A stretch of 64,000 nucleotides of DNA from Sphingobacterium sp. xlx-96. Lineage in GTDB: Bacteria > Bacteroidota > Bacteroidia > Sphingobacteriales > Sphingobacteriaceae. Shown one piece after another: positions 1 through 13,940 of the stretch (position 1 is its first letter; the number at the start of each line of letters is the position of its first letter). Both the position numbers and the translations under genes were made by a program. The notes below the pieces were generated by a model. It was not told the DNA's origin, ran no database searches, and saw only the letters and a list, made by a program, of their open reading frames with translations. The stretch is taken from positions 62,001 to 126,000 of the forward strand of contig NZ_WFKM01000007.1 of the NCBI RefSeq assembly GCF_011007365.1, given 5' to 3'.

Positions 1-647
1 CGGATGCTCCAATACTGCGCTATGCTGAGGTTTTGTTAAACTGGATTGAAATAAAGGCTGAACTTGCTACATTGGGAGGGGCGGCAGTGTCTCAATCGGA
101 TTTGGATAATTCTATTAATAAGATAAGAGACCGTCCATTGGCACCAGAAGCTGTAGCTAAAGGGGTGACTAAAACTGCGGATTTGACTTTGGGTACTCTG
201 CCAATAGATCCTCAGCGTGACGTAACAGTAACTCCATTATTATGGGAGATTCGTAGAGAGCGCCGTATGGAGATGCTTTTTGAGCACTCTAGGTTGGAAG
301 ATTTGAAACGTTGGTCTAAGTTGGCTTATATGGACACGAAGCAGAACCCTGACCTGTTGTCTGGCGGATGGGTTAATTTTAAAACGGAAATGCCTGCGAA
401 CGAGTTGAAGACTGGGGTGTCGGTAGTGAAGTTGAATGGCCAGATCGAGGTCTTTAATAGCGCCGACCCTAATAGTGGAGATAAGATGATTGGTTTTTAT
501 CGCTATGTTGAGAATACGGATAGACAACCTTTTTTGAATCAATCGAATGTCAATCCATATTTGGCTCCTGTCGGCAGAAACCAGATCAACGAGTATAAAA
601 CGCGAGGTTACGTGCTGTCGCAGACCGAGGGTTGGGGAGGAAATTAA
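1..647 (+). CDS. SusD/RagB-family nutrient-binding lipoprotein, C-terminal part (5' end outside window)
   Basis: The reading frame is open from the window edge (first full codon at base 3) and stops at 647, leaving 214 residues. The opening residues DAPILRYAEVLLNWIEIKAE are the signature of the last helical part of SusD proteins, and the end (GYVLSQTEGWGGN) looks like a usual SusD tail. SusD proteins are outer-membrane surface lipoproteins that form the lid of a SusC TonB-dependent porin and bind oligosaccharides. The SusC partner should lie just upstream of the window. It is followed after 16 bases by a DUF4623-like lipoprotein gene, so it belongs to the MurQ-containing locus that runs to 10546. 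No internal start should be assigned: a TTG at 33 lies inside the domain. Confidence 0.93.
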   Translation, partial: DAPILRYAEVLLNWIEIKAELATLGGAAVSQSDLDNSINKIRDRPLAPEAVAKGVTKTADLTLGTLPIDPQRDVTVTPLLWEIRRERRMEMLFEHSRLEDLKRWSKLAYMDTKQNPDLLSGGWVNFKTEMPANELKTGVSVVKLNGQIEVFNSADPNSGDKMIGFYRYVENTDRQPFLNQSNVNPYLAPVGRNQINEYKTRGYVLSQTEGWGGN

Positions 648-663
648 TATAAACCAAAAAGAG

Positions 664-2094
664 ATGAAAATGAAATTGAAATCATATATCGGTAAGGCCG
701 TATTGGCGACATTCGTCGGTACAACCTTGTTCGCTTGTTCGGATGATTTTCCTGAGAATGTGAGCTCTGATAAGTATACAGATCTAAAATCTATTAAAAT
801 TACGAACGCAGGTGCTAGCGGTACAGAGGTTTTGGAGGGGGTTATTAATGAAGATACCAAGGTGATCAGTTTTCCTCGGGTTGATACACTTTCGGACTTT
901 TCAAGTCTTCGTTTTGAAGCTGTAACTTCTGAAGGCGCAGCCTTGGAAAAAAGTGTTTTTACTATACCTTATGAGAGTGGTGATACGGAGACAGATGTTA
1001 TTCTGAAAGTAACCAATAATCCTAGATTTAAAGAATACAGAGCGGCAATTCGTTTTAAGGTGCCTGTATATGGAGCTAATTTTGCAACTCCGACGGTATT
1101 CGATTACTCCGAGAATGAATTGGGTAATCCTGTTTATGAAGCCTTCTCAGGTCTTTTAACTAGAGGTTCTGGCTTTGATGGAGAGTACGTTTTGGTGGTC
1201 CGGAGAGATTCTCCAAAAGGTACGCCTCATGTTCTAAAGGTGTCTGATCTTAAAGCTGGTGTCATTAAAAAGATGTTCTTAGATATGACCGGAGTCGCTG
1301 GTGGAACATTTGATGTGAGTGCTGGAGGACAAGTGAATGGACACTCTTATATAGTTAACCTGTCAACTAGTCAGGCTCAAGCTGTGAGCTTGTATCACTG
1401 GGCTAGCCCTACAGCTGCTGCGGAAAAAATTGCTTCAATCGATGTTTCAACTGTACCAGGGGCCGGGAGTCGGCATGGTGACAACTTTTCTATTAATCTA
1501 GATAATCAGGGAAATGGATATGCATTTTTATCTACTACAGATGTACAGATATTGCGTTTAAAGATCGAGAACTACTCTAAGGTTACGGAGACTACTGTGT
1601 TGACAGCAAAAAACAAGTATGGACAATGGGCTGCCTATAACCAGGTAGGGGATGATCAATACTTGTTATCAGGACATGATCAGGCTTTGTCGTTGGTGAA
1701 TTCTGGAGCATCCGCTTCATACACGTTAAATAAGACTTCCTTGCCTGGGGGATCTGGTGTTGCCCGTGTTATCGATTTCAACGGCACGCGTTATTTGATG
1801 ACTGTAACGGTTCCTAGAGGAGCGCCGAATGGAGTGAATTCTACTATTCGTATCTATGACATTTCTAAGGGAGCTAATCTTGCAGATGCTTTGACCGCAT
1901 TTGAGCAAGGGGATAAGAAAGTATTGTTTGAGTATGTCATTGCTAATGGTACGAATGCAGCGCCAGGTACACAATCTGGATATAAGGTTCATAAGGATGC
2001 TGAAGGTAAGGATAATAAGCTGGTTATCTATGCAGCAAGTGCGAATGCAGGATTTGCAATTATCGAGTTTCCGGTAAATGTTGTTGAGGATTAA
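664..2094 (+). CDS. DUF4623-like PUL-associated lipoprotein, probable beta-propeller
   Basis: The product has 476 residues. The frame is open further upstream into the susD 3' end, but the ATG at 664 (a second is at 670) gives a clean lipoprotein signal: MKMKLKSYIGKAVLATFVGT followed by LFACSDD, with the acylated Cys in a lipobox. After a short N-terminal beta domain (to about residue 130; DUF5018-like strings such as ITNPRF-type repeats are only suggestive), the rest is made of recurring beta-rich blocks (YVLVVRRD, HSYIVNLST, NGYAFLSTTD, RYLMTVTVP, KLVIYAASANAGFAIIEFP), which suggests a propeller. I associate it with DUF4623 from memory of similar PULs; the molecular function is unknown. A hairpin terminator follows at 2124-2156, so later genes may have their own promoter or depend on readthrough. 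Confidence 0.75.
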   Translation: MKMKLKSYIGKAVLATFVGTTLFACSDDFPENVSSDKYTDLKSIKITNAGASGTEVLEGVINEDTKVISFPRVDTLSDFSSLRFEAVTSEGAALEKSVFTIPYESGDTETDVILKVTNNPRFKEYRAAIRFKVPVYGANFATPTVFDYSENELGNPVYEAFSGLLTRGSGFDGEYVLVVRRDSPKGTPHVLKVSDLKAGVIKKMFLDMTGVAGGTFDVSAGGQVNGHSYIVNLSTSQAQAVSLYHWASPTAAAEKIASIDVSTVPGAGSRHGDNFSINLDNQGNGYAFLSTTDVQILRLKIENYSKVTETTVLTAKNKYGQWAAYNQVGDDQYLLSGHDQALSLVNSGASASYTLNKTSLPGGSGVARVIDFNGTRYLMTVTVPRGAPNGVNSTIRIYDISKGANLADALTAFEQGDKKVLFEYVIANGTNAAPGTQSGYKVHKDAEGKDNKLVIYAASANAGFAIIEFPVNVVED

Positions 2095-2123
2095 TTGACT
2101 TAATACGTTTAGATATAATGTTG

Positions 2124-2156
2124 GAGGGCTCATATACGTTAAATTTATGAGCCCTC
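2124..2156 (+). terminator. Hairpin terminator after the DUF4623-like gene
   Basis: The 11-bp inverted repeat GAGGGCTCATA (2124-2134) and TATGAGCCCTC (2146-2156) surrounds an 11-nt loop. The T-rich tail (tcgttgttta) is weak, so termination may be partial. It sits between two lipoprotein genes of the same locus. Confidence 0.65.
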
Positions 2157-2179
2157 TCGTTGTTTAATATAGTGAAATT

Positions 2180-3628
2180 ATGAGAAGATTATTAGTTTAT
2201 AGCTGTTGGTTTCTGGGCCTTGCTATCTTTTTAAACAGTTGTGGTAAAGATTCAGGGAGTACACCTACTCCTGAACCAGAGCCTCCTGTGTCTACAGGAT
2301 TGAAGTTCCCTAAAAAGGAAATGCGTGCGGCTTGGTTCGCATCAGTATGGTCTTTGGATTGGCCGCAAAAGGAGGTGGGTGAAGCAGCACAGAAGCAGAA
2401 GTACACCCGAATGTTAGATAGTTTGCAGACTTTGAAGTTTAACACGGTTATTTTCCAGGTAAAAGGAATGGCCGATGCCTTCTATAATTCGCCTTACGAA
2501 CCTTGGTCTGCAGCAATATCAGGTACAAGAGGTGTTGACCCAGGTTATGACATATTGAAGTTTTTAATCGATGAAACGCATGCTCGAGGGATGGAGTTTC
2601 ATGCCTGGATGAACCCCTATCGCATAGCTACGCGGGCTGAGGAGACGAATACGTTTGCTCCATTACCTCATACCATTCCTGCTTCTTGGGTGATTGATCT
2701 TCCTAAAATTCGGATCTATAATCCTGCGATGCCCGAAGTGAGAGAACGGCTTAATAATATCGTGAGAGATTTAATTCAGAAATTTGATGTAGACGGTATA
2801 CACTTTGATGATTATTTCTATCCATCTGGATTTTCATATAATGATGATGCAGACTATGCTAAGTATGGAGCGGCTTATCCAAGAAAAGAAGACTTTAGAA
2901 GGGGTAACGTAGATAAGGCTATTGAAGGTGTGTATAAGACTATTTTGGCAACAAAGCCACAGGTTGTTTTCTCTGTATCTCCGGCGGCAAGCCGTTCTTA
3001 TAATTTTAACACCATGTTTGCTGACGTCCCGAAATGGACAGCGGCAGGTTGGGTCGATGTTTTAATCCCGCAGCTGTATCAAGAGATAGGTAATCAGTAT
3101 AACCCTTTTGAAGGTAACCTTTCTGATTGGGCCTCAGTAAGAGGTAAGGCACAGTTGGTGATTGGGCATGGGCTTTATAAATTTGGTGATAACAAGCAGG
3201 CAGCCGCTTTTCAGAGTACAGTCGAGTTAGTAAAGCAGATTGACCTGGTACGTAAGAATAAATTTACGGTAGGCTCTGGGATGTATTCTGCACGTGACGT
3301 CATGGCCAATAAAATCGGTGTAGCAGATAAGCTGAAAGAGTTGTACAACAGTGATGCAGTAATACCGTTTGCAGGACGTGAGGTGGCTCCTAAGCCGGCT
3401 GTGCCAACAAATTTGGTGCTTAATGGTAGTGAGCTAAGTTGGACGGTTACAGGATCAAATCTGAAAACCGTAGTTTACCATTTCTCGGATCTTAAAGCAA
3501 CCGGTAAGGTTGTCGGGGTTACTAGCAACTCGAAAATGAATGTGACAGAGAAAGGATTTTACTGTGTTACTACAATTAATGTAGATAATCTGGAGAGTAC
3601 GGCTACTACAACAATAGAAAAGAAGTAG
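2180..3628 (+). CDS. GHL10 / DUF187 family 10-like glycosylhydrolase lipoprotein
   Basis: The product has 482 residues. An N-terminal lipoprotein signal ends at FLNSC (Cys21), followed by a Pro/Glu/Thr-rich linker (residues about 28-36). From about residue 45 the GHL10 (PF02638, YngK-type) TIM barrel begins: MRAAWFASVWSLDWP, FNTVIFQVKGMADAFYNS, GYDILKFLIDETHARGMEFH, AWMNPYR, DVDGIHFDDYFYP and VSPAASRS. The conserved acidic GIHFDDYF strand end is the likely active-site region by family analogy. A short C-terminal beta domain (about 405-482) resembles a fibronectin-III-like module. Proteins of this family occur in cell-wall and glycan-degradation loci; the exact substrate is not established. 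Here it lies between SusD/DUF4623 and GH9/MurQ genes. It is followed by a strong terminator at 3642-3676. Confidence 0.87.
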   Translation: MRRLLVYSCWFLGLAIFLNSCGKDSGSTPTPEPEPPVSTGLKFPKKEMRAAWFASVWSLDWPQKEVGEAAQKQKYTRMLDSLQTLKFNTVIFQVKGMADAFYNSPYEPWSAAISGTRGVDPGYDILKFLIDETHARGMEFHAWMNPYRIATRAEETNTFAPLPHTIPASWVIDLPKIRIYNPAMPEVRERLNNIVRDLIQKFDVDGIHFDDYFYPSGFSYNDDADYAKYGAAYPRKEDFRRGNVDKAIEGVYKTILATKPQVVFSVSPAASRSYNFNTMFADVPKWTAAGWVDVLIPQLYQEIGNQYNPFEGNLSDWASVRGKAQLVIGHGLYKFGDNKQAAAFQSTVELVKQIDLVRKNKFTVGSGMYSARDVMANKIGVADKLKELYNSDAVIPFAGREVAPKPAVPTNLVLNGSELSWTVTGSNLKTVVYHFSDLKATGKVVGVTSNSKMNVTEKGFYCVTTINVDNLESTATTTIEKK

Positions 3629-3641
3629 TTTTTTTTAAGAG

Positions 3642-3676
3642 AGCCTGATACAGTAGACTGACTCAGGCTTTTTTTA
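3642..3676 (+). terminator. Intrinsic terminator after the GHL10 gene
   Basis: AGCCTGA (3642-3648) pairs with TCAGGCT (3663-3669), followed directly by a run of T (aggcttttttt). It has the form of a rho-independent terminator on the + strand. Confidence 0.75.
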
Positions 3677-3687
3677 GTGTTATTTGT

Positions 3688-3778
3688 TATGAAATATCTA
3701 TGTAGCGCAGACTGCATAAACACAAATGAATATAGTTTGGATATTCCATATGACCATTAAAAGTCAAATTATACACAT
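3688..3778 (+). repeat. Dispersed intergenic repeat, copy A (about 90 bp)
   Basis: This stretch (gaaatatctatgtagcgcag ... tttggatattccatatgacc ... attaaaagtcaaat) matches nearly base for base a second copy at 41415-41547, which carries about 45 extra bases in the middle. It ends right at the start codon of the phosphoesterase gene. Shorter, more diverged relatives are at 23861-23940 and 28136-28235. No coding potential is seen. Confidence 0.75.
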
Positions 3779-5614
3779 ATGAAATATACTTCTTTTTTAG
3801 CAGTTTTGCTATTTTCCTTCTTATTTGATGGAAATGCCCAGACTCCTTTCAAATTTGCGCAAGTGACCGATACCCATGTTGGGGGGCATACAGGCGCTGA
3901 TGACCTGCGGCGTACCGTAGCCGACCTTAATAAACAAATGGGTATAGATTTCGTGATTCTCTCGGGAGATATTACCGAGTTTGGATCGGATGAGGAACTG
4001 GCATTGGCTAAACAAATATTAGATAGTTTGCAGCTCCCGTTATATATTATCCCAGGAAATCATGATAGTAACTGGTCTGAAAGTGGAGCAAATTCCTTTC
4101 GCAAAGTTTTTGGTGGAGAGACTTTCTTTTTCGAACATAAGGGTTATCAATTTATGGGTACCACCTCGGGACCAAATATGCGGATGAGCCCCGGACAGAT
4201 ACCTCGTGAAAACTTGGTGTGGGTTGACTCGGTTTTTAAAGCAAATGTAGACCCAAGTAAACCTTTAATTTCAATCAATCATTATCCTTTGGACTCTTCG
4301 TTGAATAACTGGTTTGAGCTTACGGACCGCTTACAACAACGGAATGTACAATTGGCTTTGTGTGGTCATGGGCATACCAATAAACTGTACAATTGGGACG
4401 ATATCCCGGGGGTAATGGCTCGCTCCAATCTTCGGGCCAAAGAGGATGTCGGCGGATATAATATTGTTACGCTTACGGGTGACTCGGTATTTTTTCAGGT
4501 ACGCAAACCGAATGTTGGTACAGCGGACTATTGGTTGAAATTGCCGCTCCAAAAGGTGGTTTTTAAAAATCAATACGCTCGTCCATCTTACGCTGTGAAT
4601 ACGAATACAAAAGCTAAATTGGTTTGGGAGTATCAGGATCACGGTGATATTGGCGCAGGTATTAGTTCAGAAGGCCAGCGTATTTTTACGGCCAATACGG
4701 TTGGGGAGGTGTATGCGTTGGATCTTAATAGCGGTAAAAAGATATGGTCATTTAAGACGGGAGGGAAGGTGTATGCTACACCGGAAGTCTATAAAGGTAT
4801 TGTAGTCGTAGGGTCTACAGATCACCATATCTACGGATTAGATGCCAAAACTGGAATAAAAAAATGGACAGTTCAAGCAAATAAGGCCGTATTAGGAACA
4901 GCCTCAATAGCGGAAGGAAATGCTTACCTAGGTGACTCGGATGGGAAATTTCGTTGCATTCGTATATCCGATGGGAAAGTCCTATGGACGTTTAATGAGG
5001 TAAAAGGGTACGTATCTACTAAACCAACGATTGCTGATGGTAAGGTCATTTTCGGAAGTTGGCAAAATGGTTTCTATGCGCTGGATCTGAAAACAGGAGC
5101 TAAGGTATGGGATTGGAGTAGTGGCGCGACGAACCGGATGTTTTCGGCAGCGGCTTGCTATCCTGTCGTGGCTAATAATAGGGTTTTTATTGTGGCACCG
5201 GATCGCTTTATGACTGCGTTGGATTTGAAAACGGGCCAGCAGGTATGGCGAGAGAAGAAGGATGGCGTCAAAGTGCGGGAATCGATGGGATTATCGCCGG
5301 ATGGTAAGTTCGTTTATGCCAAAACGATGGACGGGGAACTTATCGGTGTTTCGGTCTTTAAAAATAATATGAGTGTAGATTGGAAATCGAAGTTGGATTT
5401 GCCCTACGAGCTAACGCCAACAGCGATTTATAGCAGTAAAAAGGCAGTATTTGTCCCTAGTCATTCGGGATTGCTATCGGCAGTGGAACCTAGTTCGGGG
5501 CAAGTATTGTGGCAATATAAAATTTCAAATGGAATGATTAATCCACCACTGCTGCTCAAGGATAAAATTGTAGCCAGTACCATGGACGGTAAGATCGTGA
5601 TGCTAAAGTATTAA
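3779..5614 (+). CDS. Secreted calcineurin-like metallophosphoesterase fused to a PQQ-type beta-propeller
   Basis: The product has 611 residues with a signal peptide (about 1-20, ending NAQ). Residues about 25-240 form a metallophosphoesterase with all metal-ligand motifs: DTH (31-33), GD (63-64), GNHD (93-96), NHYP (His168) and GHGH (196-199). From about residue 280 to the end there are six PQQ/YWTD-type propeller blades, each with the form ALDLxTGxxxW (VYALDLNSGKKIWSF, HIYGLDAKTGIKKW, FYALDLKTGAKVWDW, MTALDLKTGQQVW, AVEPSSGQVLWQY). It is likely periplasmic or surface-exposed. The propeller suggests glycan or protein binding rather than a PQQ cofactor, which is inference. The substrate could be a phosphorylated sugar or teichoic-type phosphodiester; the sequence does not say. 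It precedes the GH9 gene by 31 nt. Confidence 0.88.
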   Translation: MKYTSFLAVLLFSFLFDGNAQTPFKFAQVTDTHVGGHTGADDLRRTVADLNKQMGIDFVILSGDITEFGSDEELALAKQILDSLQLPLYIIPGNHDSNWSESGANSFRKVFGGETFFFEHKGYQFMGTTSGPNMRMSPGQIPRENLVWVDSVFKANVDPSKPLISINHYPLDSSLNNWFELTDRLQQRNVQLALCGHGHTNKLYNWDDIPGVMARSNLRAKEDVGGYNIVTLTGDSVFFQVRKPNVGTADYWLKLPLQKVVFKNQYARPSYAVNTNTKAKLVWEYQDHGDIGAGISSEGQRIFTANTVGEVYALDLNSGKKIWSFKTGGKVYATPEVYKGIVVVGSTDHHIYGLDAKTGIKKWTVQANKAVLGTASIAEGNAYLGDSDGKFRCIRISDGKVLWTFNEVKGYVSTKPTIADGKVIFGSWQNGFYALDLKTGAKVWDWSSGATNRMFSAAACYPVVANNRVFIVAPDRFMTALDLKTGQQVWREKKDGVKVRESMGLSPDGKFVYAKTMDGELIGVSVFKNNMSVDWKSKLDLPYELTPTAIYSSKKAVFVPSHSGLLSAVEPSSGQVLWQYKISNGMINPPLLLKDKIVASTMDGKIVMLKY

Positions 5615-5645
5615 TGGTCGATTATTAATTGTGAATGATATTCAA

Positions 5646-7448
5646 ATGAGATTATTTTGTTTAACCTTTTATTTTATTCTCTTGTCTATCCTTGCGAAAG
5701 GACAAGGACAGAGCTGGATAAGAATCAATCAATTGGGATATCTTCCTGATGGAAAGAAAAATGCTGTTTGGGTGAATAAGGGAGACCGCGATATTCGTTC
5801 GTTTGAGGTGGTCAATGCTAAAAGTAATAAAGTAGCCCTCAAAGGGAAGCTTAAAGATAATTTCGGTGCATATGGTCCCTTTACCAAAGGGCATCGGATA
5901 GATTTTTCCGGTTTAACAAGTCACGGCGAATATTATATCCGTACAGATGATGGGACAGAGTCTCCTCGTTTCAAAATTGACCCAGATGTATATAAAGGTA
6001 CCGCAGATTTTACCCTACGCTATATGCGACAACAACGTACATTGTTTAATCCATATTTAAAAGACAGTTGCCACACCCATGATGGATTTACGATGTATGC
6101 GTCTTCGGTAGGGATGCCTGATAGCACACGTGTCGATGTGGGAGGGGGATGGCATGATGCATCCGATTACTTACAGTATGCCACTACGTCGGCGAACGCC
6201 ACTTATCACTTATTGGCTGCGTACCGCGACTACCCAGCAGCTTTTTCGGATGAGAAGCAGGCAAATGGATTGGATGGTAGCAATGGTATTGCTGATGTAT
6301 TGGACGAAGCAAAATGGGGATTAGATTGGTTAGTTAAAATGCATCCGGAACCGCATATCATGTTTAATCAAATCGCGGATGATAGGGATCATACTTCGTT
6401 AAGGCTCCCAGGCCAGGACTCCTTATATGGTAGAGGACATGAGCGGCCGGTATATTTTATCGATGGGAAGCCTCAACAGCGGGGCAAATTTTTCAATAAT
6501 ACGACTGGAACAAGTTCAACTGCAGCGAAGTTTGTCAGTGCGTTTGGACTGGGGTACGACTTGTTCAAGGAAGATGAAAGTGATTATGCGGCTGTCTTGA
6601 AGATGAAGGCTAAGACAGCTTATGAATACGCCCATCTTATACCTGGTGTGACTCAAACTGTTTCCGTAAAGTCGCCTTACATCTATGCAGAGGATAATTG
6701 GGTCGATGATATGGAGCTTGCGGAAGCTTGGATGTACCGATTGAGTGCGGACAAGAAGCATATTGATTTAGGACTGGGGTACGCTAAAGAGGAGGATGTG
6801 ACACCATGGATGAAAAGAGATACAGCAAACCATTATCAGTATTATCCATTTATAAATCTAGGGCACTATGAGTTGGCGAAGGCTGCTGGTGAAAATGGGA
6901 AAAAACAACTAATGCGCTATTATAAAGAAGGGATTGAGGAGGTGTGGAATAGAGCAAAAGAGAATGTGTTTTACAGAGGTGTACCTTTTATCTGGTGTAG
7001 TAATAACCTGACTACGGCATTTACTATTCAATGCCTTTGGTATAAAGAGCTATCTGGCGACACCCAATACGAAGAATTGGAACAGGCTAATTTTGATTGG
7101 TTATTTGGTGTGAATCCTTGGGGAACCAGCATGGTATACGGTTTGCCCGCAGATGGTGATACCCCAATAGATCCTCATTCTGCATTCACGTATTTACATA
7201 AGTATCCTATTGATGGGGGGCTGGTAGATGGTCCAGTATATACAAATACCTATAAAAATCTGATTGGTATAAAATTAACTAAGCCGGATGATTATGCCGA
7301 TTTTCAGAGTGATCTGGCTGTTTATCACGATGATTTTGGAGATTACAGTACCAATGAACCGACCATGGATGGCACGGCATCTCTGGTGTATTTACTTTCT
7401 GCAAAAGAAGCAGAAACAAAAAAAAAACGACCATCGGGTCGAAAATAG
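5646..7448 (+). CDS. Glycoside hydrolase family 9 enzyme, secreted
   Basis: The product has 600 residues from the ATG at 5646, which gives a standard signal peptide (MRLFCLTFYFILLSILAKGQ); a GTG at 5631 is a less likely start. An N-terminal Ig-like cellulase domain starts at INQLGYLPDGKKNAVW. The (alpha/alpha)6 GH9 domain has the catalytic-Asp motif VGGGWHDASDYLQY (Asp about 171), DEAKWGLDWLVKMHP, FDWLFGVNPWGTSMVYG, and the C-terminal general-acid motif DYSTNEPTMDGTAS. GH9 contains endoglucanases, and also exo-glucosaminidases acting on chitosan oligomers. The MurQ context makes an amino-sugar substrate plausible here; cellulose is less so. The frame ends in KKKRPSGRK just after a ten-A tract (7418-7427), where one extra A would continue into the CE4 deacetylase frame, so the native product may be a GH9-CE4 fusion. 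Confidence 0.9.
   Translation: MRLFCLTFYFILLSILAKGQGQSWIRINQLGYLPDGKKNAVWVNKGDRDIRSFEVVNAKSNKVALKGKLKDNFGAYGPFTKGHRIDFSGLTSHGEYYIRTDDGTESPRFKIDPDVYKGTADFTLRYMRQQRTLFNPYLKDSCHTHDGFTMYASSVGMPDSTRVDVGGGWHDASDYLQYATTSANATYHLLAAYRDYPAAFSDEKQANGLDGSNGIADVLDEAKWGLDWLVKMHPEPHIMFNQIADDRDHTSLRLPGQDSLYGRGHERPVYFIDGKPQQRGKFFNNTTGTSSTAAKFVSAFGLGYDLFKEDESDYAAVLKMKAKTAYEYAHLIPGVTQTVSVKSPYIYAEDNWVDDMELAEAWMYRLSADKKHIDLGLGYAKEEDVTPWMKRDTANHYQYYPFINLGHYELAKAAGENGKKQLMRYYKEGIEEVWNRAKENVFYRGVPFIWCSNNLTTAFTIQCLWYKELSGDTQYEELEQANFDWLFGVNPWGTSMVYGLPADGDTPIDPHSAFTYLHKYPIDGGLVDGPVYTNTYKNLIGIKLTKPDDYADFQSDLAVYHDDFGDYSTNEPTMDGTASLVYLLSAKEAETKKKRPSGRK
7418..7427 (+). repeat. Homopolymer A10 tract at the GH9/CE4 frame junction
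   Basis: Ten consecutive A lie 20 bases before the GH9 stop. Adding one A would join the GH9 frame (ACA AAA AAA AAA then CGA) to the frame that runs uninterrupted into the deacetylase (ACG ACC ATC GGG ...). The deacetylase frame is open upstream to 7358. This is a classic site for polymerase slippage, phase variation, or sequencing error. Confidence 0.9.
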
Positions 7449-7483
7449 AAAACGTAAAAACTACTGATGTATTCGGAGCAACT

Positions 7484-8134
7484 GTGCGTGGAGACAGTAC
7501 AGTCCGAGAGGTCAGTCTGGTGTTTACAGGGGATGAATTTAGAGATGGGCTGCCTGTTATTGCGAAAGTGATTAAAAGCAAAAAGGTAAAAGCATCTTTT
7601 TTTGTTACAGGTCGATTTCTGGAAGACAAAAAAAGTGCGAGAATAATCAGGAAGCTCATTAGACAGGGACACTATGTAGGGCCGCATTCAGATCAACATC
7701 TGCTCTATATGCCATGGGAGGATCGAAACAAGCTATTAGTGACTAAGGGGGAATTTGTGAAGGATATCAAAAGAAATATGGATCGGATAGAAGAGCTCGG
7801 AGGGAAAAATATAGACAAGTTTATTCCACCTTATGAGTGGTATAATGCTGTAATTGTGAAATGGGCTAAGGAGTTAGGGTTGGGAACTTATAACTTTACG
7901 CCCGGATTGAGAACAGCTACGGATTATACTTATCCCGAAATGGGCGATCGGTATTGGACTACAGACCAGATTTTGAATCAGGTATATAAGTACGAAAGAA
8001 GCAAAGGCATTAATGGTTACATCATTTTAGTGCACCTCGGTACGGATCGCCGCCGTCAGGATAAATTATACAACAAACTGGGGGAATTAATTGAGGAGAT
8101 TCGCTCAAAAAACTATAAATTCGTGGCACTGTAA
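7484..8134 (+). CDS. Polysaccharide deacetylase (CE4/NodB-like); possibly the C-terminal domain of a GH9-CE4 fusion
   Basis: About 216 residues from a GTG at 7484, the only plausible start codon in a frame open from 7358. CE4 motifs are visible: FTGDEF (motif 1, catalytic-base Asp), HSDQH (motif 2 metal His pair), FIPPYEWY (motif 3) and ILVHLGTD (motif 5 His). Family members remove N- or O-acetyl groups from chitin, peptidoglycan or xylan. Read alone, the product lacks a signal peptide although its neighbours are secreted, and its domain begins within a few residues of the start. The 40 codons upstream in the same frame read as a linker (KTTIGSKIENVKTTDVFGAT) that follows on from the GH9 C-terminus if one A is added at the A10 tract. 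I therefore suspect one secreted bifunctional enzyme. A weak GGAG lies 5 bases before the GTG, so separate translation is not excluded. Confidence 0.82.
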   Translation: MRGDSTVREVSLVFTGDEFRDGLPVIAKVIKSKKVKASFFVTGRFLEDKKSARIIRKLIRQGHYVGPHSDQHLLYMPWEDRNKLLVTKGEFVKDIKRNMDRIEELGGKNIDKFIPPYEWYNAVIVKWAKELGLGTYNFTPGLRTATDYTYPEMGDRYWTTDQILNQVYKYERSKGINGYIILVHLGTDRRRQDKLYNKLGELIEEIRSKNYKFVAL

Positions 8135-8221
8135 AAATTATAACTGCGTTTTTTTGCATGTTTTTTAAAAAAGTAGCATATTTACGAAATGTTACCAGGT
8201 ATGACTATATTTTCGGAACCG

Positions 8222-9040
8222 ATGATAAATACAACAGAGAAAGATTCTAATTACCAAGATCTCGACAAAATGTCGGTTCTTGAATTGCTTAATAATATAA
8301 ATAAGGAAGATAAAACTGTTCCTTTGGCAGTAGAGAAGTCCATACCACAGATCGAATCGCTTGTAAAGGTGGCTGTGGAACGCATGAAAAATGGAGGAAG
8401 GTTATTTTATATTGGTGCGGGTACGAGTGGACGCCTAGGTATATTAGATGCTTCGGAATGTCCTCCAACCTACGGGGTTCCTTTTGATTGGGTTATTGGT
8501 CTTATTGCTGGAGGCGACACTGCTATCCGCAAGGCTGTAGAATTTGCGGAAGATGACATGGAGCAGGCTTGGATAGATCTGGAAGAATATGCCGTCAATT
8601 CTAATGACGTAGTGATCGGAATTGCAGCGTCTGGAGGGACACCTTATGTAATCGGTGGCTTAGAGAAAGCCAATGAAAAAGGTATAGCCACTGGCTGTAT
8701 TGTGTGTAATGGCAATTCGCCGATAGCAGCTCGCGCTCAATATCCGGTCGAGGTTATTGTAGGGCCAGAATTTGTTACAGGATCTACCCGAATGAAGGCT
8801 GGAACAGCACAAAAACTGGTGCTTAATATGATAAGTACCTCGGTGATGATACAGCTAGGTAGGGTCAAAGGAAATAAAATGGTTGACATGCAGTTGTCAA
8901 ATCATAAACTCGTTGCTAGAGGAGTGCGTATGGTTATGGCAGAGACCGGGGCTGATGAAGATACTGCTACAGCGCTATTGGAAGAGTTTGGAAATGTGCG
9001 TAAAGCGATTGAAGCTTTTAGATCGGAAAAACAGCTATAA
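8222..9040 (+). CDS. murQ: N-acetylmuramic acid 6-phosphate etherase
   Basis: The product has 272 residues from the ATG at 8222, whose product begins like other family members (MINTTEKDSNYQDLDKMS); in-frame ATGs at 8189 and 8201 would add 11 or 7 residues. MurQ cleaves the D-lactyl ether of MurNAc-6-phosphate to give GlcNAc-6-phosphate and lactate in the cytoplasm. The SIS domain shows FYIGAGTSGRLGILDASECP with the catalytic Glu region (SECPPTY), the second Glu region EFAEDD, AASGGTPYV, and TGSTRMKAGTAQKLVLNM. It is followed 16 nt later by an SSS symporter, as in known MurNAc-recycling loci of Bacteroidota, where a kinase is also present. No MurNAc kinase (MurK/BadF type or AnmK) is in the window, so the 6-phosphate must come from a gene elsewhere. 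Confidence 0.95.
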   Translation: MINTTEKDSNYQDLDKMSVLELLNNINKEDKTVPLAVEKSIPQIESLVKVAVERMKNGGRLFYIGAGTSGRLGILDASECPPTYGVPFDWVIGLIAGGDTAIRKAVEFAEDDMEQAWIDLEEYAVNSNDVVIGIAASGGTPYVIGGLEKANEKGIATGCIVCNGNSPIAARAQYPVEVIVGPEFVTGSTRMKAGTAQKLVLNMISTSVMIQLGRVKGNKMVDMQLSNHKLVARGVRMVMAETGADEDTATALLEEFGNVRKAIEAFRSEKQL

Positions 9041-9055
9041 CAAATACCTAAACAT

Positions 9056-10546
9056 ATGTCACCTATCATCTTATTGTCTTTTTTAGTTGTCTATTTCGGC
9101 GTACTTCTGGCAGTGTCGCATTTTACCTCAAGGGGATCGGCCGACAATTCCACTTTTTTTGTTGCAAATCGTAACTCAAAATGGTACATGGTGGCTTTCG
9201 GTATGATCGGTACAGCGCTGTCCGGAGTGACTTTTATTTCCGTACCGGGCGCAGTAGGCGCATCCAATTTTAGTTATTTTCAGTTTGTCCTGGGGAATGC
9301 TGTCGGCTTCGTCATTATTGCGTATGTCTTATTGCCGCTTTATTACAGGATGAATCTGACTTCCATCTATACTTATCTCGAAGAACGATTTGGACATATG
9401 ACGTACAAGACAGGAGCAGCTATTTTTTTAGTGTCACGTACGATTGGGTCGGCTTTTAGGTTGTATCTGGTAGCGATTGTGCTTCAGCATTTTATTTTCG
9501 ATGCCTGGAATATTCCTTTTGCGATAACAGTTGTTATTTGTTTGCTCCTTATTTGGTTGTATACGAATAAGGGTGGTTTGAAAACCATTATTGTTACAGA
9601 TACGTTGCAGACGACGTTTTTGATTACAGCAGTAATCCTCTCGATCTATTTTATGGCCAAAGGCCTTGATTTTGGTGTGGTGGATACATTTGAGGCTGTT
9701 AAAGAAAGCTCCTATTCCAAAATTTTCTTTTGGGATGATTTTGTGGGAAGTAAAGCTAACTTTTGGAAGCAGTTCTTGGGGGGGGTATTTGTTACGATAG
9801 CTATGACGGGACTTGATCAAGATTTAATGCAGAAGAACCTATCTATGGGTACGATAAAAGAGGCGCAAAAAAACATGATCACCTTCACCAGTGTATTTGT
9901 CGTCATCAACATTTTTTTTCTTGCAGTAGGCGCTTTATTGTATATCTACGCAGAGAAAAACGGAATTGATATATCCACATTAGCTACTAGAGATTACCTG
10001 TATCCCGAAATTGCGCTGAATCATTTGGCGATTTTACCGGCGATCATCTTTATGATGGGATTGACTGCGGCTACCTTTGCAACGACAGATTCGGCGTTGA
10101 CAGCATTAACGACTTCTTATTGTGTAGACTTTTTGAATTTTAATAAAAAGGAAAATCCGAATGATCCAGTCTTGGTGAAAAGGAGAAATCTTGTCCATTT
10201 TGGATTTTCGGTATTGATGCTTATCGTTATTTTAGTATTCAGACTGATCAATAATGATTCCGTAGTAAATGCTATTTTTACGGCAGCGAGTTATACTTAT
10301 GGTCCTTTGTTGGGATTGTTTACTTTTGGGATGTTAACCAAACGTGCAGTTAATGATAAGCTTGTTCCTTATATATGTATATTGTCGCCATTGATTTTAT
10401 TTTTGCTTAATACCTATGTGATATCAGTCTACACACCCTATATAATAGGATTAGATTTGATAATCCATAACGGATTGATCACATTCTTGCTATTGCTTAT
10501 AACATCACCAGGAAGGGCGACAGAAAAGGCGCTATCGCACAAGTAG
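9056..10546 (+). CDS. Sodium:solute symporter (SSS family), probable amino-sugar/MurNAc importer
   Basis: The product has 496 residues and about 13 hydrophobic segments along its length, consistent with the LeuT-fold SSS family (PF00474). Family-like strings include the first helix (IILLSFLVVYFGVLLAVSHF), GMIGTALSGVTFISVPGAVG, IYTYLEERFG, and the later GLTAATFATTDSALTALTTS, which matches the SSS Na+-site helix. It lies in the inner membrane. It is 16 nt downstream of murQ and almost certainly cotranscribed. By analogy with the MurT transporter next to murQ in Tannerella forsythia, import of MurNAc or a related sugar is likely; specificity cannot be read from the sequence. A terminator follows at 10572-10613. 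Confidence 0.88.
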   Translation: MSPIILLSFLVVYFGVLLAVSHFTSRGSADNSTFFVANRNSKWYMVAFGMIGTALSGVTFISVPGAVGASNFSYFQFVLGNAVGFVIIAYVLLPLYYRMNLTSIYTYLEERFGHMTYKTGAAIFLVSRTIGSAFRLYLVAIVLQHFIFDAWNIPFAITVVICLLLIWLYTNKGGLKTIIVTDTLQTTFLITAVILSIYFMAKGLDFGVVDTFEAVKESSYSKIFFWDDFVGSKANFWKQFLGGVFVTIAMTGLDQDLMQKNLSMGTIKEAQKNMITFTSVFVVINIFFLAVGALLYIYAEKNGIDISTLATRDYLYPEIALNHLAILPAIIFMMGLTAATFATTDSALTALTTSYCVDFLNFNKKENPNDPVLVKRRNLVHFGFSVLMLIVILVFRLINNDSVVNAIFTAASYTYGPLLGLFTFGMLTKRAVNDKLVPYICILSPLILFLLNTYVISVYTPYIIGLDLIIHNGLITFLLLLITSPGRATEKALSHK

Positions 10547-13910: not shown

Positions 13911-13940
13911 AGCATCAAGTAATTGGTGCTTTTTTTTTTA
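13911..13940 (+). terminator. Terminator-like hairpin after the second tRNA-Val
   Basis: AGCATCA and TGGTGCT (with one G-U pair) form a stem around a 6-nt loop, followed by a run of nine or more T. Transcription of the third tRNA may depend on readthrough or its own promoter. Confidence 0.7.

Follow-up and report, generated by a model that had tools for sequence, protein, structure and literature searches.

Conserved programmed frameshifting is already known as a kind of event, and the described systems closest to the case considered here are the dnaX gene of Escherichia coli, the tssM genes of Citrobacter rodentium and Yersinia pseudotuberculosis and the prfB gene of Bacteroidia. For tssM, the portion of PMC4256274 consulted documents poly-A slippage with two needed products. 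For the RNA polymerase of E. coli, a run of more than seven residues is long enough for slippage, and insertion is favoured over deletion in RNA-polymerase slippage (excerpts of PMC6260861). As regards translation, the ribosomes of Bacteroidia occlude their anti-Shine–Dalgarno (anti-SD) sequence (PMC8710568, in the part available).

The present work deals with genes in which a GH9 domain and a CE4 (polysaccharide deacetylase) domain are encoded one after the other, in one frame or in two. Literature searches, mostly at listing level, returned no report of a frameshift in GH9–CE4 or CE4 genes. A 2011 pilot study, reportedly of disrupted open reading frames, could still list a GH9–CE4 case. The main text of PMC3711429 mentions neither a deacetylase nor a cellulase, while its supplements could still list such a case; the first 300,000 characters of PMC5009743 name no deacetylase, cellulase or Bacteroidetes.

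RESULTS

The window is a stretch of 64,000 nt from Sphingobacterium sp. xlx-96, in which all features discussed below lie on the forward strand unless otherwise stated. A GH9 reading frame that includes a CelD_N domain and the whole of a GH9 domain occupies 5631..7448, counted from GTG 5631, with ATG 5646 as the other possible start. The latter is probably the true one; the N-terminus that it would give, MRLFCLTFYFILL..., resembles a signal peptide as judged by eye. At the junction stands a run of exactly ten A (A10; 7418..7427), and the GH9 stop TAG (7446..7448) follows 18 nt 3′ of it. The open CE4 frame spans 7358 to 8134, with its conserved domain beginning at about 7454, and is offset by −1 from that of GH9; the two would be fused by the addition of a single A to the mRNA or by a ribosomal slip of −1. 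The preliminary description had noted the GH9 stop soon after the A run, the open deacetylase frame and the single inserted A that would join them, and our analysis agrees on each of these points. It was also right that the CE4 frame of the window has neither an ATG nor a signal-like N-terminus upstream of the domain. The first usable, and sole pre-domain, start in this frame is GTG 7484, which lies within the conserved stretch and is preceded by GGAG; this start is not conserved. The idea that an A10 run is improbable in itself was dropped, as the count in the window fits its base composition (two observed against 2.3 expected). The window has one other A10 run, at 13930-13939 of the minus strand, in a gap between listed frames.

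The GH9 domain matches PF00759 over its full length (model positions 1-444 of 444, E=1e-63), and the CE4 domain matches PF01522 with E=1.8e-14. The predicted structure of the latter has a pLDDT of 88, and its Foldseek matches are CE4 structures (best E 1.8e-15), the closest of which include peptidoglycan deacetylases; the best match is a pseudoenzyme. The catalytic motifs of CE4 enzymes are TFDD and H(S/T)xxH. Both histidines of the HSDxH motif are invariant in 16 of 16 CE4 sequences, and motif 1 is atypical, FT(G/A)(D/H)(E/D), the profile aligning its T with the Asp of PdaA. Owing to the atypical motif and to the pseudoenzyme as best structural match, deacetylase activity is not assured. The nearest solved structures are generic endoglucanases for GH9 and CE4 deacetylases for CE4, and no substrate can be deduced from them.

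The genus search, which covered 93 genomes, found CE4 in 63 of them and no match in the other 30 (E <= 1e-20). In the order search, 122 of the 300 genomes drawn contained CE4 at E <= 1e-12, all of them from the same family. We examined 101 loci, that is, the window and 100 fetched stretches. These took in all genus matches of the 1e-20 search and two weak genus matches of the order search, together with all short-frame or odd cases and 15 chosen long-frame (fused) loci from other genera. As many as 93 of the 101 were intact and could be classed; in the others the CE4 was broken (G112, G071, G294), the GH9 frame was broken (G270, G172) or a GH9 match was missing (G225, G065, G003). The CE4 frame lies at −1 in 60 of the 93 intact loci and in no case at the opposite shift, and 33 are in-frame fusions, a number from which the fused share outside the genus cannot be estimated, since the fused loci of other genera were a chosen set. 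The shifted loci divide into 46 with an A6G/A7G heptamer and 14 with A10. Within the genus the counts are 29 A6G, 14 A10 and 18 fused, one of the last with A11.

On a quick tree of the 93 rows the class label changes 12 times, the A10 loci adjoining fused loci inside the genus and the A6G loci being scattered across many genera. Some neighbours differ by one base at the junction: G035 has A10 and is shifted while its sister G002 has A11 and is fused, and G119 has A6 while G182 has A7 and is fused, as is another A7 locus, G233. Stops or frame changes break the CE4 of G071 (L115), G112 (L114), G294 (L118) and G738 (L263), which indicates that the deacetylase half is sometimes lost; the junction run persists in spite of this in G071 and G112 (A10) and in G738 (A6G). 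The CE4 part seems, moreover, to be exchanged on its own by recombination, since dS between G035 (L044) and G002 (L045) is 0.023 for CE4 and 0.324 for GH9, and the reverse is seen between G064 (L042) and G035 (0.809 and 0.280, respectively).

The preliminary description had regarded a sequencing error as the simplest alternative, an opinion that does not survive the finding of one direction of shift in 60 intact loci from independent assemblies. A run of ten identical bases, and a CE4 that is broken in some relatives, might certainly raise the suspicion of an error or a plain pseudogene in the window's genome. However, 13 further genomes share the identical A10, and four of these (G094, G029, G081, G004) consist of a single contig; in addition, the CE4 of the window compared with that of G082 gives a dN/dS of 0.075. 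We give this explanation hardly any credence, and sequencing error as such was rejected on the ground that the same junction occurs across many independent assemblies.

The CE4 sequence is under purifying selection, to judge from codon comparisons. In 12 chosen shifted pairs with measurable dS, dN/dS ranged from 0.062 to 0.328 (three further shifted pairs were saturated), as compared with 0.054-0.274 in five fused pairs and 0.257 in one mixed A10/A11 pair. Start codons are scarce: in 47 of the 60 shifted loci the CE4 frame contains none of ATG, GTG and TTG ahead of the domain, 13 have at least one of the three, and an ATG is present in a single locus. Taken together, purifying selection and missing starts suggest that the CE4 frame is maintained as protein and that most species can reach it from the GH9 frame only. 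A separate CE4 gene was rejected as an explanation on the same count of missing starts. Translation of CE4 by re-initiation past the GH9 stop could make use of GTG 7484 and its GGAG in the window, and of the occasional start elsewhere; the great majority of the shifted loci offer it none, and a protein begun there would carry no signal peptide, which stand-alone relatives mostly appear to have. We thus hold re-initiation to be very improbable.

Many CE4 homologues of the phylum are stand-alone genes with their own N-terminal segment, which by eye is hydrophobic or resembles a signal peptide or that of a lipoprotein. It had been suggested that homologues might consistently have separate CE4 genes with their own signal peptide. 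This is not what we found: close relatives are fused or shifted, and separate CE4 genes with signal-like N-termini were found in distant Bacteroidota only. At L157, a stand-alone CE4 gene lies 3′ of a divergent GH9 gene, and its signal-like N-terminus ends at the position that the slippery site occupies in the shifted genes.

The heptamer A_AAA_AAG stands in the slippery phase in all 46 A6G/A7G loci (AAAAAAG, with A7 in one). This phase allows two lysyl-tRNAs to slip back by one base. The GH9 stop follows the heptamer directly in 43 of the 46. Upstream SD-like elements were scored by the rule given in the accessible part of PMC4066793, with random in-phase places in the same GH9 genes as background. 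By this rule an element is present in 46 of 46 loci against 15% of the background, and its strong form (GGAGG or GGGGAG) in 38 of 46 against 1.2%. The distance from the end of GGAGG to the heptamer is exactly 10 nt in 35 loci, variants occupy the same place in six, and AGGAGG is found at 13 nt in five. The codons underneath encode LEE, MEE, IEE, LGE, REV, REG, REE, RGE, QEG, QEE, KEG, SEV, PEV or GEV, a variety which implies that the nucleotides are conserved and not the residues. The anti-SD sequence CCTCC was present in the 16S tail of all nine genomes checked.

Exactly 5 nt 3′ of the heptamer, a hairpin is found in one Pedobacter subclade. It rests on eight loci that are few and related, five of them shifted, two fused with A7 and one with a broken CE4. 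In this hairpin 97.9% of the stem cells are paired and three of six pairs are changed on both sides. None of 500 shuffles reached its covariation score, although the arrangement had been noticed before the covariation test. A general downstream RNA structure was rejected: the mean z over 70 nt is weak (−0.82 for the 46 A6G loci, −0.70 for the 14 A10 loci and −0.43 for 31 fused loci), and covariation is clear in the Pedobacter subclade only. The anatomy of the site in the A6G species gives good support to dnaX-type −1 ribosomal frameshifting. The poly-A junction of the window is the exception, and the dnaX-like cassette that most shifted relatives appear to carry was invisible to the preliminary description.

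The 14 A10 loci all belong to the window's clade, and all have exactly ten A at the junction. The codon phase is free, the run being found in the three phases in 10, 3 and 1 loci. None of the 14 has a strong SD-like element (GGAGG/GGGGAG within 16 nt upstream), while five pass the loose rule. Across the 93 loci, the GH9 reading frames (160 kb) contain no A run of nine or more, and the CE4 frames (60 kb) contain one. What goes beyond chance is the conservation of A10 at the junction, not A10 itself. In all 14 loci the run exceeds the seven residues relevant to slippage of bacterial RNA polymerase. The fixed length of ten, the free phase and the loss of the strong SD-like element lead us to favour, on balance, insertion slippage by RNA polymerase as the probable route in the window.

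Alternatively, the shift in the window may be ribosomal, with a −1 slip of lysyl-tRNA on A_AAA_AAA within the run; the products would be the same and only the machine would differ. Whichever of the three codon phases A10 takes, it does still contain a slippery heptamer, the relatives carry a ribosomal-type site, and A_AA.A_AA.G is among the shift-prone motifs of E. coli in the part of PMC4066793 consulted. On the other hand, the strong SD-like element so frequent in the A6G loci is missing from every A10 locus, the length of the run is fixed although seven A would suffice for the ribosome, and the codon phase, fixed in A6G, is free in A10. We therefore regard a ribosomal slip in the window as possible but doubtful, and retain slippage of RNA polymerase as the favoured route.

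The A10 class looks like a younger, slippage type, because its loci adjoin fused ones and have one-base neighbours while A6G extends across many genera, an arrangement from which we infer the direction of change. The A10/A11 difference between the sisters G035 and G002 could also point to heritable phase variation, in which replication slippage would toggle strains between GH9 alone and the fusion. Yet the clade counts 14 A10 loci against a single A11, and in most shifted relatives the run is no more than A6G, hardly a hot spot for replication slippage. Phase variation is accordingly improbable.

A scan of genome contigs extended the sample, 80 named loci being kept of 500 relatives. Of these, 38 are shifted at −1, 33 are fused, three have another relation and six lack a GH9 match. 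After removal of those already counted, 21 shifted loci were new; the SD-like element is strong at exactly 10 nt in 17 of them, at 11 nt in one and farther away in two, and it is absent from one. Most of the new shifted loci are from Pontibacter, of the order Cytophagales, in which A6G, adjacent stop and GGAGG recur as the same cassette. Among named relatives, Sphingobacterium nematocida is nearest to the window, its CE4 being 88% identical. In the phylum search CE4 was found in 41 of 395 genomes; 14 stretches with an apparently unfused or unusual arrangement were retrieved, and in one of them (G688) the CE4 is again shifted at −1, on A9.

These data bear on the view that the slippery sites are merely tolerated indels rescued by slippage, selection acting for the fusion only and the short GH9 being useless in itself. 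Plain fusions in about a third of the classed loci and the one-base neighbours (A10/A11 in G035/G002, A6/A7 in G119/G182) would fit such a view. It does not readily account for the way in which A6G recurs, together with the stop next to it and a GGAGG 10 nt before it, in many genera and in Cytophagales, although a single insertion would restore the fusion, and we consider it rather unlikely.

The neighbouring genes provide some indication of function. Upstream of the junction lie frames for a DUF4623 protein (547..2094; PF15416, the true start probably 3′ of 547), a glycosyl hydrolase-like 10 protein (GHL10; 2180..3628; PF02638) and a calcineurin-like phosphoesterase with a BamB/PQQ-type beta-propeller (3779..5614; domain match). 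Downstream are MurQ, N-acetylmuramic acid 6-phosphate etherase (8189..9040; TIGR00274 above the curated cut-off), and a sodium:solute symporter (9056..10546; PF00474). On the 5′ side of the window, SusC/SusD-like pairs are accompanied by a protein of the NamZ family (exo-N-acetylmuramidase family). One orientation is shared from the SusC/D pairs and NamZ-family gene (L265, just upstream) through 547-10546 of the window up to the symporter. The presence of NamZ and MurQ nearby makes amino-sugar glycans, e.g. peptidoglycan fragments, the presumed substrate, and the SusC/D–NamZ–GH9/CE4–MurQ–symporter region suggests a candidate locus for the use of peptidoglycan fragments.

DISCUSSION

Our comparative data are best read as indicating that one gene for a secreted enzyme gives both GH9 and GH9–CE4 by programmed frameshifting, a reading to which we assign a probability of about 0.85. 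In this the preliminary description, which had proposed both products from one gene by slippage, seems to have been correct. Where no shift takes place, translation would end at the GH9 stop and yield secreted GH9; a fraction would shift at the slippery site and yield GH9–CE4, the CE4 being exported by means of the GH9 signal peptide. To judge by length, the two products would measure about 67 and 94 kDa, respectively. In most shifted relatives the event would be a −1 ribosomal slip on A_AAA_AAG. Its presumed stimulators are the adjacent stop, the SD-like element, which as a rule precedes the heptamer by 10 nt, and, for the Pedobacter subclade, the hairpin that lies 5 nt after it. In the clade of the window, RNA polymerase would probably add one A in part of the mRNAs, and a −1 ribosomal slip on the same run may occur as well.

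Several observations count against a programmed switch: the lack of a CE4 match in 30 genomes of the genus, the broken CE4 of several relatives, the commonness of A10 by composition, the missing strong SD-like element in the A10 class, the absence of a general downstream structure and GTG 7484 with its GGAG. Furthermore, the plain fusions (33 of the 93 loci) imply that GH9 alone is not needed everywhere, and the occlusion of the anti-SD in Bacteroidia ribosomes, described in excerpts of PMC8710568, means that an SD-like stimulator may work poorly. It is tempting to speculate, nevertheless, that the conserved −1 shift of Bacteroidota uses internal SD/anti-SD pairing during elongation, despite the anti-SD being hidden at initiation, and thereby sets the ratio of GH9 to GH9–deacetylase, and that the window's lineage swapped this ribosomal switch for slippage of RNA polymerase on A10 with the same two products. 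We advance this proposal tentatively, at slightly less than even odds.

If the programmed reading is correct, a chromosomal gene for a secreted enzyme, found in at least two orders of Bacteroidota, joins the candidates for conserved bacterial frameshifting. It would offer a natural comparison of ribosomal shift, poly-A slippage and plain fusion as means of joining the same two domains, and would make it testable whether elongating ribosomes of Bacteroidia, with their anti-SD occluded, read an internal Shine–Dalgarno sequence. On the practical side, genes of this type will probably be cut in two by automatic annotation, and their CE4 part will then appear as an orphan without an export signal. 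The case owes its interest to the depth of conservation and to the apparent change of mechanism inside a single gene family.

The A6G relatives, but not the A10 site of the window, resemble E. coli dnaX, which, in the parts of PMC7282821 and PMC5600365 consulted, likewise combines A_AAA_AAG with an upstream internal SD-like element and an early end of the zero frame. The downstream hairpin of dnaX is matched in the Pedobacter subclade, whereas most A6G loci are without a clear one. Moreover, the shift shortens the product of dnaX, while that of GH9–CE4 would add a second catalytic domain to a secreted enzyme. The A10 site is closer to tssM1 of C. rodentium (A11) and tssM3 of Y. pseudotuberculosis, in which, according to the same portion of PMC4256274, poly-A stands just before a stop and the long form arises by addition of an A; either form is known there as the default state, in parallel with the A10 and A11 loci described here. 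The gene is unrelated, however, and slippage has been demonstrated for tssM, with a share of 20-25% in the mRNA, while for GH9–CE4 it is inferred. At the +1 programmed frameshift site of Bacteroidia prfB an SD-like element is kept, as in our loci, and it works there despite the occluded anti-SD (PMC8710568, in part); prfB differs in the direction of the shift, in the autoregulation of RF2 and in its motif. Similar, too, are the in-frame GH9–CE4 fusions of Pedobacter, Chitinophaga and part of Sphingobacterium, which have the same two domains in the same order with the linker in the same place and which, being encoded in a single frame, would yield the fusion product only.
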